From the NCBI GenBank assembly GCA_003649445.1, contig QMRV01000088.1:1-7224 (forward strand): DNA of 7,224 nt, written 5' to 3'. The position numbers were made by a program, and so were the translations under genes. The stretch comes from Thermoprotei archaeon. Its GTDB lineage: Archaea; Thermoproteota; Thermoprotei; Thermofilales; B15-G2. Under the pieces are notes generated by a model. It was given only the letters and a program-made list of their open reading frames with translations, was not told where the DNA came from and did no database searches. Every line of letters starts with the position of its first letter. Position 1 is the first letter of the stretch. Below, one piece after another: positions 1 to 7,224 of this stretch.

Positions 1-690
1 AAAGTCTTCAGGCTTAAGGCTTACCGGAGGATATACTTCTTCCCATGAACCATAAGTATTTGGATCATTGTTCCAGCGCTCACCGAGCTCCTCTAGGCTA
101 AACTGTTCTTTAAGCCACTCTCTAAACTCGGATACAGTGCGCTCGTCGTAGCTAGCATCCTCTATTCCTCTTTCAGTTGAAGTAAACTCAGGCACAAGAG
201 CCCATTTTTCGCCGCAAAGCCAGTAGTCTACTACAACGTCGTCATATTCTTTAACAACTTCGATTACCCTCTTGACATACTCTTCTAGCTTTCTGAAGTA
301 ATTCTCGTCGTGAGGTACGGTGCCCATATAGGGTATAAGTACTCTTCTGCCAGTTTCAGTAATAATATACCAGCCATATTTCTCGGACATCCACTGAGGT
401 GGCGTTGGATCAAAGTGAATAAATACTCCAATACTCATGCGCTTAGCTTTCTCCAGTAAATTCTTTAGGCTGCTTAAATCCCATATGCCGTCATAAGGCT
501 CAATCTCTCTCCATCGAGCCCAGAACTCTGCTGCAGTAAAACCTGCTCTTAAATATAGGTTTCTAGCAGGATCCTCGACACACTCGTCTGGTAGACTTAT
601 TAAGTAGTTTCCGCTCCCGTAAGCAGTTGTCTTAATGAAAGGTTTTCCTTTATAGTAAAAGCACCCGTTTTTCACCTCGAATACTGGCAT
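1..690 (-). CDS. GH42-like glycoside hydrolase (beta-galactosidase-type), N-terminal part
   Basis: An open minus-strand frame of 230 codons starts with ATG at 690 and runs off the left edge. GH42 enzymes are TIM-barrel hydrolases, classically of beta-galactosides, and usually exceed 600 residues, so about a third is visible. Seen here: an N-terminal strand with a YKGKPF motif (residues 13-18), the segment FWARWREIEPYDGIWDLSSL (56-75) that matches the GH42 'W..LEP.dG.ydf..LD' block, an HFDPTPPQWM stretch (92-101), a YWLCGEKW motif (156-163) where the acid/base Glu belongs (E161), then FREWLKEQF (189-197) and a W/YPP ending (216-222) like the GH42 'FR.WL...Y..L..LN..W....W..i.PP' region. The usual Asn before the acid/base Glu is Gly160 here. 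There is no signal peptide, so it is probably cytoplasmic. The start is supported by a GGAG Shine-Dalgarno (697-700) six bases upstream. The true substrate is unknown; family membership is inferred from motifs. Confidence 0.78.
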   Translation of the reverse strand, partial: MPVFEVKNGCFYYKGKPFIKTTAYGSGNYLISLPDECVEDPARNLYLRAGFTAAEFWARWREIEPYDGIWDLSSLKNLLEKAKRMSIGVFIHFDPTPPQWMSEKYGWYIITETGRRVLIPYMGTVPHDENYFRKLEEYVKRVIEVVKEYDDVVVDYWLCGEKWALVPEFTSTERGIEDASYDERTVSEFREWLKEQFSLEELGERWNNDPNTYGSWEEVYPPVSLKPEDF

Positions 691-863: not shown

Positions 864-2174
864 ATGTCGGTTGCCAAATTTATTGACAGAGAAGAAGAGC
901 TTAACGCCTTAAAAAAGGCTCTCGAGAGTAATAGGTTTGAATTAATAGTAGTTTACGGTAGGAGAAGAGTAGGTAAAACAAGACTAGTGCTTGAAGCACT
1001 CAAAAATAAAGAATACGTCTATTATCTCGCTGTAGAGAAAGGGAACTTAGAAAGATTTAAGAAAACTGCAGCTAAAGTATCTAGCGAAATAAAGTATGCT
1101 AAAGAAGACTGGGAATCATTCTTCTATTTCCTCAAGAACAAAATAATAGTAATAGATGAGTTTCCGAATCTAATTAAAGAAGATAAGACAATAATTTCAT
1201 TATTTCAGAAAATAGTTGATGAAAACTTACTAAACACTAAAACAAAGCTCATTCTCATAGGCTCATCAATATCAATGATGAAAGAAAAAGTACTGAGCTA
1301 TAAATCTCCACTTTACGGCAGAAGAACAGGCCAAATAAAACTTAAACCACTTAAATTCAAGTACCTTAAAGAATTCTTCCCCAGCGCCTCGCCACAAGAG
1401 CTAGTCGAAATATACGGTTTCGCGGGAGGAACTCCATACTACTTAGAAAAGATTAAAACACCTTTTTGGAGTTGGTTAGACGAAGAATTGAAAGATCCTA
1501 AGAGCTTCTTAAAAGAAGAAGGAGACTTTTTACTCAGGTACGAGTTCGAAGAAATAGGTACATATAAAAGAATTTTAGAAGCAATAGCATGGGGTAAAAC
1601 AAAACTAGGAGAAATAAAAAGTTTCGTAGGAAAACCATCGATAACAGAATACATCAAAAACTTGATCGAAATAGAGCTAATAGAGCATATTAAGCCAGTA
1701 ACAGGAGGAAAGAGAGGAATATACCAGATAGCAGACAACTTTACACGCTTCTGGTTCCGATATATTTATCCAAATTTAAGTGAAATAGAGCTGGGAATAT
1801 TCACGGCCCAAGACATTAAACAAGACTACAACAACTACCTGGGAGAAGTATTCGAAAAAATAGCACTAGAATTCATAGCAGAAGAAATAGCCCGCGGAAA
1901 ACTGCCTAAAGTCACTAAAATTGGCAAATGGTGGTATAAAGGTGAAGAAATAGACATAGTAGGATTAAATGGCAGAAGAACAGGAATATTTGTTGAAGTA
2001 AAGTGGAGCGATTTATCTCGCCGCGACATTGCCAGAATATACGAAAGCTTAGTGGGAAAGGCTCGATACTTCAAAACCGATAGCAAGTTGTACATAATAG
2101 TCTGTAGAAACGCTCCCTTCATTGAAGAAGAAAACCTAAAGGTATATACATTGGACGACATACTTCAAGCATAA
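864..2174 (+). CDS. Archaeal AAA-type ATPase with C-terminal DUF234 / PD-(D/E)XK-like domain
   Basis: This 436-residue protein belongs to the archaeal ATPase family typically annotated 'ATP-binding protein' (Arch_ATPase plus DUF234). Seen: an N-terminal FIDREEEL box (residues 6-13), Walker A GRRRVGKT (32-39), Walker B IIVIDE (94-99), a sensor-1-like IGSS followed by the family's PLYGRRTGQIKL segment, a winged-helix-like middle, and a C-terminal region with EEID (D364) and EVK (E378, K380), the spacing of a PD-(D/E)XK nuclease core. The length is normal for the family and all key residues are present, so it is probably functional. The cellular role of the family is poorly defined; NTP-driven nucleic acid processing or defence are guesses. 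It is divergent from the GH42-like gene across a palindromic operator candidate and convergent with the URO-D-like gene, 18 bases away. The coding strand looks very A-rich. No Shine-Dalgarno is visible at the ATG. Confidence 0.9.
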   Translation: MSVAKFIDREEELNALKKALESNRFELIVVYGRRRVGKTRLVLEALKNKEYVYYLAVEKGNLERFKKTAAKVSSEIKYAKEDWESFFYFLKNKIIVIDEFPNLIKEDKTIISLFQKIVDENLLNTKTKLILIGSSISMMKEKVLSYKSPLYGRRTGQIKLKPLKFKYLKEFFPSASPQELVEIYGFAGGTPYYLEKIKTPFWSWLDEELKDPKSFLKEEGDFLLRYEFEEIGTYKRILEAIAWGKTKLGEIKSFVGKPSITEYIKNLIEIELIEHIKPVTGGKRGIYQIADNFTRFWFRYIYPNLSEIELGIFTAQDIKQDYNNYLGEVFEKIALEFIAEEIARGKLPKVTKIGKWWYKGEEIDIVGLNGRRTGIFVEVKWSDLSRRDIARIYESLVGKARYFKTDSKLYIIVCRNAPFIEEENLKVYTLDDILQA

Positions 2175-2192: not shown

Positions 2193-3314
2193 TCACAGAG
2201 TACTCGCAATAGGGTATTTCCCATACTTTAGCGCTAGACGGTAAGCCATAATCGCGTTTTCTGGAGGCGTATTTTCGCGTATATGCTGTAAGCCAAATAT
2301 ATATCCTCCGCCTGGTGCAAGAATACTTATTACTTCCTTGACATGTTTCTCTACTTCACTCAGTGTTCCAAAAGGAATTATTCTCTCAACATCTATTCCT
2401 CCTTGAAAACATATCTTATTGCCAAAAGTTTTCTTAAGCTTAATAGGATCATTACCCTTTTCTTGAGGAAGTATTGGATTCAGTATGTCTATGCCGCAGT
2501 CAATGAACTCTGGTATTAGCTGAAATACCGCTCCGTGACAGTGATAATTGAACTTTACTTTGGGAAACTCTTTCTTAATAGTTTTTACCAGTTTACAGAA
2601 CCATGGTTTAACAAATTCTCGGTACATTTTAACCGACATAAATGGCTCTGTTTCAGTGCCCATATCGTCGCCAAAATATATCCAGACTACATAGTCTGCT
2701 ACTTCGTTTAAAAGGTTAAGAGTTGCTTCAAGGACTATTTCTAGTATTTTATCTGCTAAAGCTTTGTACAGCTCGGGATTTAAGCGCATGTCTAGAAGCC
2801 ACTGCTTAAATCCTCTTAAATGAGCATATCTATGGAAAATCGAGCCTGCCGCACCACAGAAGATTGCATAGTCTGTTTCCTCGTATAGTTTCTTGGCTAT
2901 TTCTCGAACTCCTTCAATAAGCTTGGGGTCATTTGGGTTAGGCCACTTAGGGTAGTTCTCGATATCTTCTACGGTTTTAGCATCTTTAAGAGGATGCTTT
3001 GCTACATAAACCATGTCTCCTGAATCTTTCCATATTACACCCCACCAGTCTTCAACATATCTTCCTGGCAGTCTTTTAGCAGGTATTCGGAGTCCTACGC
3101 CGCGGAAATCTACGTCGAGTGCCCACAGAAAATCTTCGTGTAAGGCAGCATCGTACGAGAGTAAAGCACGCTTTATTTCCACATTGCTTAAACCGAGATA
3201 AGACCTCAATTTAGCGTAAGCTTTGACGGTAATAGTGTTTACGTATATTGGGACTCTATCGGGTTCTTCTAGGTTTATTGCTGCTTCAACTCTCTCCCTA
3301 TGGCTGTACTTCAC
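2193..3314 (-). CDS. URO-D superfamily protein (methyltransferase/decarboxylase-like)
   Basis: This 373-residue protein is in the uroporphyrinogen decarboxylase superfamily, a TIM-barrel fold that includes HemE and the corrinoid methyltransferases MtaA/MtbA. Seen: the N-terminal RERVEAAINLEEPDRVP block (residues 6-22), the FGDD motif (214-217) and 'EP.MS...YREFVKPW' segment (222-238), an YHCHG motif (257-261) in the usual 'FHsCG' position, DILNP (276-280), QGGID (304-308), and a glycine-rich GGGYIFGLQH (335-344) followed by NTPPENAI. It lacks a convincing porphyrin-binding N-terminus, so HemE is unlikely; a family methyltransferase or an uncharacterised relative is more probable. No corrinoid protein or partner methyltransferase lies nearby. 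The start is GTG at 3314; no ATG lies in frame near the N-terminus, and a TATA box about 26 bases upstream fits a leaderless transcript. It ends with TGA. Confidence 0.88.
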   Translation of the reverse strand: MKYSHRERVEAAINLEEPDRVPIYVNTITVKAYAKLRSYLGLSNVEIKRALLSYDAALHEDFLWALDVDFRGVGLRIPAKRLPGRYVEDWWGVIWKDSGDMVYVAKHPLKDAKTVEDIENYPKWPNPNDPKLIEGVREIAKKLYEETDYAIFCGAAGSIFHRYAHLRGFKQWLLDMRLNPELYKALADKILEIVLEATLNLLNEVADYVVWIYFGDDMGTETEPFMSVKMYREFVKPWFCKLVKTIKKEFPKVKFNYHCHGAVFQLIPEFIDCGIDILNPILPQEKGNDPIKLKKTFGNKICFQGGIDVERIIPFGTLSEVEKHVKEVISILAPGGGYIFGLQHIRENTPPENAIMAYRLALKYGKYPIASTL

Positions 3315-3333
3315 GTTAATATAGCGTGAGATA

Positions 3334-3345
3334 CCATAAAATAAC
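3334..3345 (-). promoter_or_regulatory. TATA box for the URO-D-like gene
   Basis: Minus-strand GTTATTTTATGG is centred about 26 bases upstream of the GTG at 3314, which would place transcription initiation at the start codon (leaderless). There is no Shine-Dalgarno. Read on the plus strand, the same AT-rich block could also serve the flavodoxin gene with a short leader before 3404. Confidence 0.5.
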
Positions 3346-3403
3346 TATAGCCGCTGTCCTATTGAACAAAAGAAGTTATCTAGATGAACACACTATTTCC
3401 TGC

Positions 3404-3880
3404 GTGAAAGTAGCCGTAGTGTATGCATCTGTATACTACGGAAATACCGAGAAAGTAGCTAAGGTTATAGCCGAGGTGCTTAAAGCAGACTTGTATAAGG
3501 CGTGGGAAGTAGACCCTAGTACTCTGCTACAGTACGATTTAATTGGCTTCGGGTCTGGCATATACTTCGGTAAACACCATAAGAGTCTCTTCAAGCTAGT
3601 AGAGAAACTACTTAAAGTAGAGGGTAAGAAAGCATTCGTGTTCTCTACAAGCGGCATAAGGAAAATACCTATTGTCCACAACTTTCATAAGCCTTTAATA
3701 AAAAAGCTCCGTGAAAAAGGGTTCTCTATAGTAGGCGAGTTCTCTTGCAGAGGTTTTGAAGACTACGGTCCATTTAAGCTAATAGGGGGCATAAATAAGG
3801 GAAGACCAAGTGAAGAAGACTTAAATAAAGCTAGAAAGTTTGCTTTCAGCCTCAAAGAAAATCTGCTGCAGGATACTTGA
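3404..3880 (+). CDS. Flavodoxin-family protein
   Basis: From GTG at 3404 the protein has 158 residues and begins directly with a flavodoxin beta-strand, MKVAVVYASVYYGNTEKVAK (1-20). The phosphate-binding loop for FMN is SVYYGNTEK. A second loop, GFGSGIYFGKHHKSL (48-62), and a third, FSTSG (80-84), are in the expected flavodoxin order, and the C-terminus has GGINKGRPSEEDL (128-140), typical of anaerobe flavodoxin-like proteins. It probably carries electrons using FMN; the partner is unknown. The fold is related to HemG-type protoporphyrinogen oxidase, but nothing here shows that activity. The frame is open upstream to a GTG at 3326; I reject that start because it lies 11 bases from the divergent URO-D gene and would add 26 residues that do not resemble a flavodoxin. 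No ribosome binding site is seen at 3404. It ends with TGA; a TAA follows three codons later. Confidence 0.85.
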   Translation: MKVAVVYASVYYGNTEKVAKVIAEVLKADLYKAWEVDPSTLLQYDLIGFGSGIYFGKHHKSLFKLVEKLLKVEGKKAFVFSTSGIRKIPIVHNFHKPLIKKLREKGFSIVGEFSCRGFEDYGPFKLIGGINKGRPSEEDLNKARKFAFSLKENLLQDT

Positions 3881-3897
3881 GTACATGAATAAAAAGC

Positions 3898-3909
3898 AAT
3901 AAATATACT
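3898..3909 (+). promoter_or_regulatory. TATA box for the ChrB-like gene
   Basis: CAATAAATATAC lies about 24 bases before the GTG at 3927, the right distance for a leaderless archaeal transcript. Its preservation suggests that the interrupted gene downstream was active until recently or still is transcribed. Confidence 0.45.
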
Positions 3910-3926
3910 GGCAATAGATACTTCAG

Positions 3927-4439
3927 GTGAAGCGGGTTACCCTAAATTTCCCAGGAGTAGACCGCACTGCTAGCGCGTGACTCATAAAAAGATACATAGA
4001 CCCTGAAGCAGAGTTTATTTTCATTAACTGGTCATACGAGCCTATACCAGAAGACACTGTACCTTTCGACATAAAAGGTGTAGAACTATGTCACAAAAAC
4101 AATAAATGCACCTTCGAAGTAATAATCGAAAAATACGGCATAAAAGACGCTATTGTACATAAAATAGCGGAACTTGTCCATGCAATGGATATTGAAGGCG
4201 AGCTAGATAAAGTTCCCGAGGCTAAGGGAATAAAAATGATAATTAGTGGACTAAGATTTGCCGCGAAAGATGACTCAGAAGTAGTAAACTTAGGGCTAAA
4301 AATATGAGACGCTATTTACGCATACTTCAAGTCAGTAGAGCTTATGGAAAAGTACGCCGAAAAAATAAAGGATTTAAGTAGATTCGAGAAATATAAGTTA
4401 ATTAGGGAAGAAGTTAGAAAAGACATTATATTCTATTAA
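3927..4439 (+). pseudogene. ChrB-type chromate-resistance domain protein, interrupted by two in-frame TGA codons
   Basis: A single frame of 170 codons runs from GTG (3927) to TAA (4437-4439) and is broken only by TGA at 3978-3980 (codon 18) and 4305-4307 (codon 127). The product matches the ChrB C-terminal domain family (chrome_resist, PF09828): VDRTASA-stop-LIKRYIDPEAEF, then VPFDIKGVELCHKNNKCTFE, then KIAELVHAMD, then GLRFAAKDDSEVV and DAIYAYF. The first TGA stands where family members have Trp (AWLIRRFIDPEAEF); the second stands at an aromatic position just before DAIYA. Each TGA is one G-to-A change from TGG. ChrB proteins are linked to chromate resistance and sensing in bacteria; the role in archaea is inferred. 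The gene lies 46 bases after the flavodoxin and 10 bases before an MFS remnant, as in a two-gene operon. The most likely reading is a recent nonsense pseudogene; UGA readthrough cannot be excluded. Confidence 0.8.
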
Positions 4440-4449
4440 AGGGATTAAA

Positions 4450-4655
4450 ATGATCAGAAAATATTTTTACTTATATGTGTAGCTAGGTTCTTCGCCATAT
4501 TGAGTTCAACGATGTCTAAGTCTCCTACACTTCCACTCTACGCTGACAGCTTAGGAATACCTGTAAGCGAAATAGGCTTTATTGCCACCTCCTCTACGAT
4601 CGTGGGAATATTCACTAACATTATTGCAGGAAAACTTTCAGACACACGAAAAACG
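4450..4655 (+). pseudogene. MFS transporter, frameshifted and truncated N-terminal remnant
   Basis: ATG at 4450, with a GGG-containing Shine-Dalgarno-like sequence just before it, opens MIRKYFYLYV and then hits TAG at 4480-4482. Shifting frame at about 4480 (two extra bases or one lost) restores ARFFAILSSTMSKSPTLPLY, then ADSLGIPVSEIGFIATSSTI and VGIFTNIIAGKLSDTRKT, which ends in TAG at 4656-4658. This is the standard start of a Major Facilitator Superfamily transporter: membrane segment 1, the 'LPLYA..LG.s..eIGfi' loop, segment 2, and the 'G.lSD..GRk' signature between segments 2 and 3. The remaining ten or so segments are absent. It sits 10 bases after the ChrB-like gene and was probably its operon partner, perhaps as an exporter. 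It is clearly non-functional. Confidence 0.78.
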
Positions 4656-4656
4656 T

Positions 4657-4920
4657 AGTGTATCCTTTATTAACAAACTCATTGAATGGAAATTAATACT
4701 AAGCAGATACAAAGTCTTAGAGAAAAATAAGATAGCTTACGTACCCTGCAGAGAGAGCTCTGAGTGGAGCTTCGACTATGGCTTACTTGAACCACTTTAC
4801 CGAAATGTTCGCAGAGTAACTAACCCTAATCAGATAATCCCTAAGAAGAACTACTACATTACACCTTTGATTTTACCTCACCTTAAAGAAGAATTTAGTA
4901 AATGCTGTCGCGTTAGCTGA
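4657..4920 (+). pseudogene. Unidentified coding remnant fused behind the MFS fragment
   Basis: In the frame after the MFS break there is an open stretch ending in TGA at 4918-4920. Its protein-like core has segments such as FINKLIEWKLILSRYKVL, KIAYVPCRESSEWSFDYGLL, EPLYRNVRRVTNPNQIIPKK and NYYITPLILPHLKEEF. The composition (Trp, Tyr, Pro, Arg, charged helices) looks like a soluble globular protein, not a transporter. It has no credible start of its own: the nearest in-frame ATG (4582) lies inside the MFS sequence in the wrong frame. I read it as the C-terminal part of another gene joined to the MFS stump by a deletion. I do not recognise the family. Its 3' end overlaps the minus-strand gene ending at 4873. 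Confidence 0.4.
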
Positions 4921-5103
4921 GACTACGAGATACTTGAAGATATACTCTTTTGGTATGCTAATTTTAATTAAGGCAATATAATGTTTGTTAACACGGTGCA
5001 AAGAAAGCTTTAGCGCAGTACTTTTAGGTAATAGTGTAATAGGTTCAGCGACAATAGAACTTAAGAGAATAATAGAAAAGAGCAATTGTAGAAGTTTCTT
5101 CAT
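4873..5103 (-). CDS. Short secreted protein, probable stump of a surface protein
   Basis: 76 residues starting at ATG 5103, whose first bases form an ATGA overlap with the TrmB-family stop codon, so it is likely translated by coupling from the same mRNA. The N-terminus MKKLLQLLFSIILLSSIVAE is a clear signal peptide (charged start, hydrophobic core, small residues near cleavage at about residue 19). The rest (KLSLHRVNKHYIALIKISIP, then KEYIFKYLVV and an NAT glycosylation sequon) looks like the first strands of an extracellular beta-rich domain, but the frame stops with TAA after residue 76. No lipobox Cys and no second membrane segment are present. The 3' part is antisense to the remnant ending at 4920. 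Most likely the gene was truncated by the rearrangement that made the decayed cluster; a genuine small secreted protein is possible. Function is unknown. Confidence 0.45.
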   Translation of the reverse strand: MKKLLQLLFSIILLSSIVAEPITLLPKSTALKLSLHRVNKHYIALIKISIPKEYIFKYLVVSANATAFTKFFFKVR

Positions 5104-5813
5104 ATTTTTTCGCGCTCAAATAGAGCTTCAAGGAGCTTGTAGAAAGTTTCTGAAATAGATCTATTGTCTATTAATATTCCTACATCATGTCCTGAAAGCA
5201 TGTCTTCGTCATCAGGAACCGATAAGAAAATTAGTATCTTGTCTCTTGTTGAAACAATATTGCATTCCGCTTCACACTCCTTTATTTCAATTAGCCTGAA
5301 ATCGGGGTTTTTAAGTCTCCTGCTCAAGTACTTTGATAATCGTCTCCAAGTCGGCTTAGTTAATATAGCATAAATAGGTCCGGGAGCAGAGAGCATTTCA
5401 GAAACAATGTTATTTACAGGAATTCTGCCTTTAAGAAAAATAGCTAGCTTTTCTGCCCGTGATACAGGGACTTTCTCATATATTGGAACAAGTTTATCTT
5501 TAAGCTCTCGAGCTACTTTCTCAAATCTCTCTATTCTCTTCCGGTACTCATTTTCAAGATTTTCTTTAAGTGTCTTTAAGGCTATTTCAGGGTGAACAGC
5601 CTTGTACTTAATAGGCCTCCCACCTAGAGAAACCACAAGTCCTTTGCTTTCAAGACTACTCAATACATCATATGTTTTAGTGTAAGGTACTCCAGCTAAA
5701 TCACTTAATTCGCTTACAGTAGCTACCCCCCTAATACATAGAGCAATATATATTTTTGCCTCCTGATACGTGAGCCCAAGATCCATTAACATTCTAACAT
5801 GTTGTTCACTCAT
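5100..5813 (-). CDS. TrmB-family transcriptional regulator
   Basis: 237 residues from ATG 5813. TrmB proteins are archaeal regulators with an N-terminal winged helix and a ligand-sensing C-terminal part, often controlling sugar uptake and metabolism. Seen: DLGLTYQEAKIYIALCIRG (11-29), ELSDLAGVPYTKTYDVLSSL (35-54) as recognition-helix region, a wing with GGRPIKYKAVHPE (64-76), an amphipathic coiled-coil-like helix (about 80-112) for dimerisation, and a C-terminal alpha/beta domain ending in HDVGILIDNRSI and a TFYKLLEALFE helix. It is shorter than full-length TrmB (about 340), so the sugar-binding domain is probably absent or different and the ligand is unknown. An ATG 11 codons upstream (5846) is rejected: it lies only about 20 bases from the TATA box, whereas 5813 has a GGTGG Shine-Dalgarno six bases upstream. 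The gene is followed with ATGA overlap by a secreted stump, suggesting that it regulates its own operon. Confidence 0.85.
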   Translation of the reverse strand: MSEQHVRMLMDLGLTYQEAKIYIALCIRGVATVSELSDLAGVPYTKTYDVLSSLESKGLVVSLGGRPIKYKAVHPEIALKTLKENLENEYRKRIERFEKVARELKDKLVPIYEKVPVSRAEKLAIFLKGRIPVNNIVSEMLSAPGPIYAILTKPTWRRLSKYLSRRLKNPDFRLIEIKECEAECNIVSTRDKILIFLSVPDDEDMLSGHDVGILIDNRSISETFYKLLEALFEREKI

Positions 5814-5819
5814 TTTAAG

Positions 5820-5824
5820 CCACC
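5820..5824 (-). promoter_or_regulatory. Ribosome binding site of the TrmB-family gene
   Basis: GGTGG on the minus strand lies six bases before the ATG at 5813. It decides between the two in-frame ATG codons (5813 and 5846) in favour of the shorter protein. Confidence 0.6.
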
Positions 5825-5859
5825 TGCCCCCTATGAAAACATACATAACTTGCCTTACT

Positions 5860-5970: not shown

Positions 5971-7224
5971 TTAAATAAATGTTCTATGAAACTTTCTTAC
6001 CCGCAAAATAGCTATAGTTACAACTACTACAGCTATTAATGCAGCTAAGTACATTAAGTAAGTGTAGTCAAGTTTCTTTTCAAATACTATTTTTCTAGGA
6101 CGCTTCATTTTACACGCGATAAAGTTCACATAGTATACGCTGCCCTTTTTAAGCGGAGGATCTCCTTTCTTCCATACGTACAGTAGAACAAAGTTGTCTG
6201 CCACTACTGCCTTGTAGGCATTTGTTGAGATTACTGTCACGTTCTCTACTCTAAATGGAAGAATAATCACTGGATGTCTATTACCCCACTTACCGTTCCA
6301 TCCGGGTGTTCCATCTTTGTTCATTATTATACCTACAGTTATATTCATGTAGGTCTGATTAAGATACTCTACATGAATAAATCTCGTGTACATTCGCTCA
6401 ATAGATACCTCTGCTTTCACATCGAGTGCTGGGTCTCCGTAGAGCGCTGGCCCATTTATGTCTTTCTTCAAGTACTCGTGGTTAGGTCCTGGAACCAAGT
6501 TGATCATATCGAAGATCGCTGACTGCTGGTTCGCGAAAAAGGCTTCAGCCCAAGTATAGTTGTCTTGCTCAATAAAGTAAGCAGGTATTCCGCCCATCAT
6601 GTAGCTGTAGGGTCCTTCTTCGATAACATATCCTGTGTAGAATACTGCTCCGCCAGAATGTATCCATGCTGGAGCCATGCTGTCTTTTCCCCTTATTGCT
6701 CCTATGTAGCAGTTACCTAGCCCGAAGTATATTTTAGGGTTAGTCGACTTAATTAAGTGCGCCGAGTTATTTGCCGCTATAGCATATACTTTTCCGTCTT
6801 CTGAAACAAAGTAGCCTTCAGGCCAAGGGTCAGGGTAATGTACTTGCCACCTATCGTGATTCCCATGACCACTCGTAATAATCATGTCAAACTGATTACT
6901 ATTCACTAAGTCTGCAAGAAGTAGCGTAGAGTCTTTAGGTATCTTCTTCTCCACTTTTGTTCCATTGGAATAGATAATGTAGAGTATACCGTACTTTGTT
7001 TCAGGCTTCATTACTCCTCCTTCTTTAATATAGTAAACCCACCTAACACAGCAGCACGCTAGAATACGTTTGACTTTAAAGCCTTTCATTAAAACTACCC
7101 TCAAAGCATCATCATAACTATATCCAGTTAATATAGCCCACACAGCGTCTACATAGGGGTCGTCGTCAAGTCCTCTCATAAGCCTATTAACGCTTTTAAC
7201 AAATTCAGGCGACGCTTCGCTAGG
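5971..7224 (-). CDS. Membrane-anchored C25/gingipain-like cysteine peptidase, C-terminal part
   Basis: The minus-strand frame is open to the right edge, so the 417 visible residues are the C-terminal portion; the Met at 7179 is internal, since DPYVDAVWAILTGY begins right after it and belongs to a domain starting further upstream. Seen: IITSGHGNHDRW with a candidate catalytic His (codon 6865-6867), YFGLGNCYIGAI with a candidate catalytic Cys (codon 6709-6711), a Gly-rich AWIHSGGAVFYTGY segment, and ALYGDPALDV, a GDP motif common at the end of C25 peptidase domains. A beta-rich domain follows, then one hydrophobic segment (YLMYLAALIAVVVVTIAILR, 5997-6056) and a basic tail, giving an outside catalytic domain anchored by a C-terminal helix. 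Six N-x-S/T sequons fit an archaeal surface glycoprotein. A signal peptide would lie outside the window. The gene ends with TAA and an oligo-T run. The substrate is unknown; the catalytic assignment is by motif only. Confidence 0.72.
   Translation of the reverse strand, partial: PSEASPEFVKSVNRLMRGLDDDPYVDAVWAILTGYSYDDALRVVLMKGFKVKRILACCCVRWVYYIKEGGVMKPETKYGILYIIYSNGTKVEKKIPKDSTLLLADLVNSNQFDMIITSGHGNHDRWQVHYPDPWPEGYFVSEDGKVYAIAANNSAHLIKSTNPKIYFGLGNCYIGAIRGKDSMAPAWIHSGGAVFYTGYVIEEGPYSYMMGGIPAYFIEQDNYTWAEAFFANQQSAIFDMINLVPGPNHEYLKKDINGPALYGDPALDVKAEVSIERMYTRFIHVEYLNQTYMNITVGIIMNKDGTPGWNGKWGNRHPVIILPFRVENVTVISTNAYKAVVADNFVLLYVWKKGDPPLKKGSVYYVNFIACKMKRPRKIVFEKKLDYTYLMYLAALIAVVVVTIAILRVRKFHRTFI

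Follow-up and report, generated by a model that had tools for sequence, protein, structure and literature searches.

The reassignment of UGA from a stop signal to Trp is a change of the genetic code known in bacteria, some eukaryotes and organelles. In-frame stop codons are also found in pseudogenes, where a single transition in a codon such as UGG is considered their most likely origin (Shulgina and Eddy, 2021; PMC8629427). Two other sources run contrary to such a reading in general terms, one treating in-frame stops as poor markers of pseudogenes when neither frameshifts nor long deletions accompany them (PMC7918605) and the other stating that most interrupted genes are functional (PMC8211752). 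Here we describe a chrB-like gene of a Thermoprotei archaeon that carries two in-frame TGA codons, both in alignment columns where its close family has Trp. The evidence presented below makes it very probable that this gene is an ordinary pseudogene of recent origin, one half of a chrB-MFS pair that is decaying.

Gene Content of the Window

The window (the whole stretch of DNA analysed, 7,224 bases with a GC content of 38%) is apparently one complete short contig, as the fragment between the two TGA codons is itself listed from a contig of 7224 bases. Its features are collected in Table 1. The 402-residue protein contains SGHG and GNCYIG stretches tentatively reminiscent of C25-type cysteine peptidases. 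The URO-D protein shows weak similarity to MtaA/CmuA methyltransferases, far under the cut-offs of those families, and, besides its own cluster, has only two relatives above 57% identity among the matches listed. A search of the window returned neither tRNAs nor Rfam RNAs. A plasmid origin was considered and rejected, as blastn of positions 3327-4926 gave no match in 72,556 plasmid records.

Table 1. Position of genes, gene remnants and in-frame TGA codons within the window.
Feature	Position	Strand	Remarks
GH42-like gene, partial	1-690	-	gene order in window
AAA ATPase with DUF234	864-2174	+	
URO-D family gene	2193-3314	-	
Flavodoxin-like gene, intact, 5' of chrB	3326-3880	+	stop codon is TGA
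chrB-like gene, very probably a pseudogene (stand-alone ChrB_C domain)	3927-4439	+	starts with GTG, ends with TAA; codons 18 and 127 are TGA
First in-frame TGA, chrB codon 18	3978-3980	+	column Trp in 64/64 close and 120/122 examined homologues
Second in-frame TGA, chrB codon 127	4305-4307	+	column Trp in 63/64 close homologues; Trp, Tyr or Phe in 118/122
MFS transporter remnant, 61 residues	4461-4643	+	66% identity to residues 5-65 of the 387-residue MFS protein of locus L010
Gene-poor stretch without recognised gene	4644-5099	.	no convincing MFS match; no Pfam match in two ORFs
TrmB-type regulator	5100-5846	-	
402-residue protein without significant family match	5971-7179	-	Pfam and NCBIfam

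A ChrB_C Frame Interrupted at Two Trp Positions

The chrB frame runs for 170 codons before its TAA, and its translation contains no stops other than the TGA codons at positions 18 and 127. Under the standard code the frame is therefore not uninterrupted, and its longest open piece, between the two TGA codons, comprises 108 codons. There is no indel in its 513 bp, which is mildly unexpected if the gene is decaying. When TGA is read as Trp, residues 4-134 match the ChrB_C family PF09828 with 140.3 bits (E 6.2e-41), far above the curated cut-off of 25 bits and over profile positions 2-132 of 132. A role in chromate resistance is suggested for proteins of this kind by their annotated name. The closest relative by identity, P0001 (170 aa), aligns over its full length with the read-through frame at 74% identity, and P0002, a protein of a Thermoprotei archaeon, is 69% identical; the names attached to the best ChrB matches include Thermoprotei archaeon and Candidatus Methanomethylicota, which points to a probable origin of the contig within the Thermoproteota.

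The two interrupted columns were read in 122 homologues, namely 119 of the best 120 of 211 matches together with P0241-P0243; the window's own fragment between the two TGA codons (P0013) was excluded. A close set of 64 sequences consists of P0001-P0065 minus P0013. Codon 18 falls in a column that is Trp in every member of the close set and in all but two of the 122 homologues, the remaining two having Pro and Cys. At codon 127, 63 of the 122 homologues have Trp, 35 have Tyr, 20 have Phe, one has Cys and one has Leu, with gaps in two; the close set has Trp in all sequences but one (P0053, Cys). The first-pass annotation had described a frame running from GTG to TAA without frameshift and broken only by these two TGA codons, which the translation bears out, and had placed the first TGA on a Trp of the family, which the alignment confirms. 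Its description of the second site as aromatic is accurate for the wider family and can be sharpened to Trp for the close one, so that the alignment it had proposed as a check finds Trp at both sites among close relatives.

Searches for nearer relatives returned little. A search for sister-strain fragments, among candidates of about 59-189 aa, gave only the window's own P0013 and homologues that are at most 81% identical. Neither the best 120 of 211 matches nor the fragment search contained an intact ChrB that exceeds 74% identity. The cluster of P0013 has two member sequences, with one contig listed; if the second member comes from another strain, the pair of TGA codons would be shared and older than one lineage. 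A scan for viral relatives, in which the segment bounded by the TGA codons served as query, gave four pattern matches and no encoded relative.

TGA and TGG in Neighboring Frames

The six other frames of the window contain 38 TGG codons and no internal TGA, a count that is partly circular since these frames were chosen as open. For the same reason the lack of TGA at conserved Trp positions across several genes of the 7.2-kb window is to be read with the selection of its frames for being open in mind. Three of the five frames that end inside the window do so at a TGA, and reading through these three ends with code 4 would add only 4, 5, and 13 codons. The TGA that ends the URO-D frame stands in the same alignment column as the ends of P0122 and P0123, the relatives nearest to it. 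Trp 124 and Trp 172 of the URO-D protein are invariant in an alignment of the window with six relatives, and the frame has no internal TGA. This protein belongs to a cluster (P0121) of 16 members, the longest of whose contigs measures 81.7 kb, as against no intact ChrB above 74% identity among the matches listed; such a difference would be expected if the species does not maintain chrB.

Constraint on the Remaining ChrB Positions

The read-through protein was compared with its relatives at 48 nearly invariant columns, defined by a conservation of 95% or more among the relatives. It departs at six of them (codons 3, 6, 23, 36, 55, and 147), while P0001 departs at one, which is also the median of the 65 sequences. 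Codon 3 encodes Arg in the window and Trp in 111 of the 122 homologues, and so a third family Trp has been altered. Residues unique to the window's chrB number 12 against a median of 2, the fifth-highest count among the 65 sequences. The terminal branch of this chrB has a length of 0.37 compared with 0.05 for P0001, placing it sixth of 65. In the tree the window groups with P0002, P0003, P0004, and P0006 and not with P0001, at a node whose support is low (0.46). Relatives with open frames reach similar numbers of departures, with 7 in P0028, 6 in P0021, and 5 in P0042, so that two of the 64 (P0028 and P0021) equal or exceed the window; five open-frame relatives have longer terminal branches. 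Taken together, these comparisons support a loosened constraint on chrB, as far as it can be read from sequence, and fall short of proof since open-frame relatives overlap with the window.

If three to five of the changes are taken to be in excess, they correspond to roughly 0.03-0.05 neutral substitutions per site, for which 0.5-1.0 stops would be expected, with a probability of 0.08-0.28 for at least two. The two stops thus fit the other damage in chrB loosely. With regard to P0028, this ChrB_C protein is encoded on a contig of 1113 bp and, in addition to its seven departures, has Arg at codon 3; it is possibly decaying itself or poorly sequenced.

The Partner MFS Gene

A set of 21 loci was compared, several of them short and three of them (L001, L008, and L009) representing one place. 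The closest loci retrieved, L010 and L011, encode ChrB proteins with 56% and 54% identity. In L010 (chrB 1492-1995, MFS 316-1479) the MFS gene follows directly after chrB on the same strand at a distance of 12 bases, and in L011 an MFS gene likewise follows chrB on the same strand, its product being 80% identical to the L010 MFS as far as the contig extends. Matches to the L010 MFS were found in six of the 21 loci (L010, L011, L013, L016, L017, and L019). This order suggests that chrB and the MFS gene may form a conserved pair; in a literature search on ChrB, chromate, archaea and MFS, such a pair did not appear in the titles or the opening lines of abstracts.

In the window, 61 of the 387 MFS residues remain (residues 5-65), with 66% identity and an E of 9e-19; all further matches have an E of 0.11 or worse. 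The remnant frame stops at a TAG (4656-4658), lacks a start codon from the stop that precedes it up to the matching region, and is accompanied by an ATG (4450-4452) in another frame. The lesions of the MFS gene, namely truncation, frame change and TAG, are unrelated to TGA. Downstream, positions 4644-5099 yielded no convincing MFS match, and the ORFs at 4582-4920 (+) and 4873-5103 (-) have no match in Pfam. A repeat-driven deletion of the MFS gene was considered and rejected, as positions 4300-5150 contain no direct repeats of at least 14 bases. A 22-nt inverted pair with 77% complementarity (4418-4439 and 4968-4989) flanks the gene-poor stretch together with the 3' end of chrB, and is possibly due to chance or a trace of a small mobile element.

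How Unusual Are Two TGA Codons at Trp Positions?

The sense codons of chrB do not include CAA, CAG or CGA, and as a result its Trp codons are the only ones that lie one transition away from a stop. The family Trp codons 18, 35, and 127 offer six transition routes to stop, while the other 167 sense codons offer 75 transversion routes and no transition route. The odds were calculated for assumed ratios of the transition to the transversion rate per route. At ratios of 1, 2, 4, and 8, the probability of finding both of two stops on Trp codons is 0.4, 1.3, 4.3, and 11.7%, and the probability that both are TGA at Trp is 0.09, 0.3, 1.1, and 2.9%. The earlier argument that random decay should have struck other codons holds in part: there are 75 transversion routes elsewhere in the gene, but there is no transition route elsewhere. 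We judge two TGA codons at Trp to be somewhat unlikely (about 0.1-3%) for a given pseudogene with two stops, but the pattern was chosen after the fact, and as the outcome of pseudogene decay it is in our judgment far likelier than a new archaeal genetic code.

Interrupted ChrB_C Genes in Other Archaea

Of 227 genomes from another archaeal phylum, 49 contain matches to ChrB, 58 in total. Stops were counted in eight of these matches and all eight were read. In four (L014, L020, L022, and L024) the stops are confined to the protein's C-terminal end, leaving internal stops in 4 of the 58 (L023, L025, L026, and L027). L023 has a TAG and a TAA, the latter at the codon-127 column beside DALY, where relatives such as L014 have Tyr. 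L025 has a single TGA in a column that is not Trp, L026 has a TGA at the Trp column of codon 3 plus a TAA, and L027 has a TAA and two TAG near its start. The possibility of recoded relatives was rejected on this survey, all eight stop-bearing matches being without TGA at codons 18 or 127. Decayed ChrB_C genes, as judged by sequence, do exist beyond the window, and an ordinary TAA may occur in one gene together with a TGA in a Trp column. The four interrupted copies come from genomes G171 and G092, and L025 and L026 are two ChrB_C copies of one genome, both of them interrupted. Tandem, diverged ChrB_C genes were also seen in three genomes of one archaeal phylum (L008:1495-2447, L017:952-1908, and L019:1477-2460).

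Weighing the Explanations

The reading of chrB as a pseudogene is preferred because its partner MFS gene is also broken and because other conserved ChrB positions have changed. Relative to intact homologues, the disabling mutations are the two stops in chrB and the truncation, frame change and TAG in the MFS gene. In-frame stops by themselves, with no frameshift or long deletion, are held to mark pseudogenes poorly (PMC7918605); here the truncation and the frame change lie in the MFS gene and not in chrB. The suggestion that a damaged MFS gene next door points to a pseudogene is upheld by what is left of it, 61 of 387 residues with the ATG out of frame and a TAG, and a very young pseudogene, one of two options raised in the first-pass annotation, agrees both with an MFS gene broken without any TGA and with changes at nearly invariant ChrB positions that include a third Trp. 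From what the alignments and the neighboring gene directly display, we infer the order of events and the use of the standard code in this organism. An ancestor would have had chrB and the MFS gene side by side, both of them intact. The latter would have been lost to a large truncation combined with a change of frame close to the start, so that 61 of its residues can still be recognised; chrB, next to it, would be decaying through point mutation, with two of its Trp codons changed to TGA. With UGA acting as a terminator, the product would be a peptide of 17 residues and no ChrB protein would be made.

The other option, that the archaeon reads UGA as Trp at an appreciable rate, whether genome-wide or by leaky reading, so that chrB still yields a protein, is very improbable as a whole; nothing in the window speaks for it except the two Trp sites and the unbroken frame, and the neighboring frames use TGG and in three cases end in TGA, a partly circular observation. 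A genome-wide code resembling code 4, in which chrB would be a normal gene, would account for Trp in 127 of 128 cells of the two TGA columns among the 64 close relatives and for a frame free of indels, and it would extend the TGA-ended neighbors only briefly. Against it stand the 38 TGG and zero internal TGA of the six neighbors (partly circular, as noted), the URO-D terminator shared in position with the two nearest relatives, an MFS gene broken without TGA, and a third family Trp that is now Arg. The Codetta screen covered 6927 archaeal stop codons from 2309 species and inferred an amino acid for 9 of them, while all the new codes that it accepted are changes of arginine codons in bacteria (PMC8629427). 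Such a code is extremely unlikely here; UGA decoding as Trp, genome-wide or leaky, would if real be the first reported in an archaeon, within the part of the literature covered, and would carry this code change into the third domain. A milder version would leave UGA as a stop and let selection keep a low level of ChrB made through near-cognate reading by tRNA-Trp or through editing. UGA is read as Trp at very low frequency in Escherichia coli and Salmonella (PMC7918605), and a four-base-pair anticodon stem allows tRNA-Trp(CCA) to read UGA in E. coli (PMC13092985); the two Trp sites and the intact chrB frame are also as expected. However, two successive UGA codons would multiply the loss, nearly invariant ChrB positions have changed, most of the partner MFS gene is gone, and the archaeal recoding described as demonstrated in one review comprises Sec, Pyl and frameshifting (PMC8211752). 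We regard this version as most unlikely.

Two explanations do not involve Trp decoding or decay at all. One or both TGA codons could be errors of sequencing or assembly in an intact chrB, which is conceivable for what appears to be a short contig, but the six other frames have no internal stop and two like errors in one gene of 510 bp beside a truncated partner would be a strange coincidence; this explanation is very unlikely. Selenocysteine is inserted at UGA in archaea (PMC8211752), but the relatives have Trp and not Cys at the two positions, Cys occurring in only 1 of 122 at each site, and the window gives no match in Rfam, though archaeal SECIS elements can be missed by such a search. A selenoprotein is close to impossible. 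As a pseudogene, chrB is ordinary, and its value is that of a clean example of how weakly stops at Trp codons of a single gene testify to recoding: where a gene lacks CAA, CAG and CGA, its Trp codons are the sole targets from which a single transition gives a stop, and decay in the neighborhood helps to decide.

Comparison With Known Systems

The closest described relative of the window's gene is the archaeal stand-alone form of the ChrB C-terminal domain (PF09828, annotated "chromate resistance protein"), which it resembles with 140 bits over residues 4-134 and from which it differs by two in-frame TGA codons and by changes at 6 of 48 nearly invariant positions. It shares order and strand with the chrB-MFS pairs of L010 and L011 (MFS neighbors also occur in L013, L016, L017, and L019), but here only 61 of 387 residues are left of the MFS gene, with its ATG out of frame. 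Like L023, L025, L026, and L027, the window has a recognisable ChrB_C frame with internal stops; theirs, however, are a mixture of TAA, TAG and TGA lying mostly off the Trp columns, whereas both stops of the window are TGA at Trp. The nearest parallel to its two TGA codons is found in yeasts, where stops in pseudogenes, at Trp columns and a single transition from Trp codons, were misread as UGA or UAG encoding Trp (Shulgina and Eddy, 2021; PMC8629427). While that case concerned a genome-wide inference in eight yeasts, which the authors themselves attributed to pseudogenes, the present one concerns one gene on one archaeal contig.
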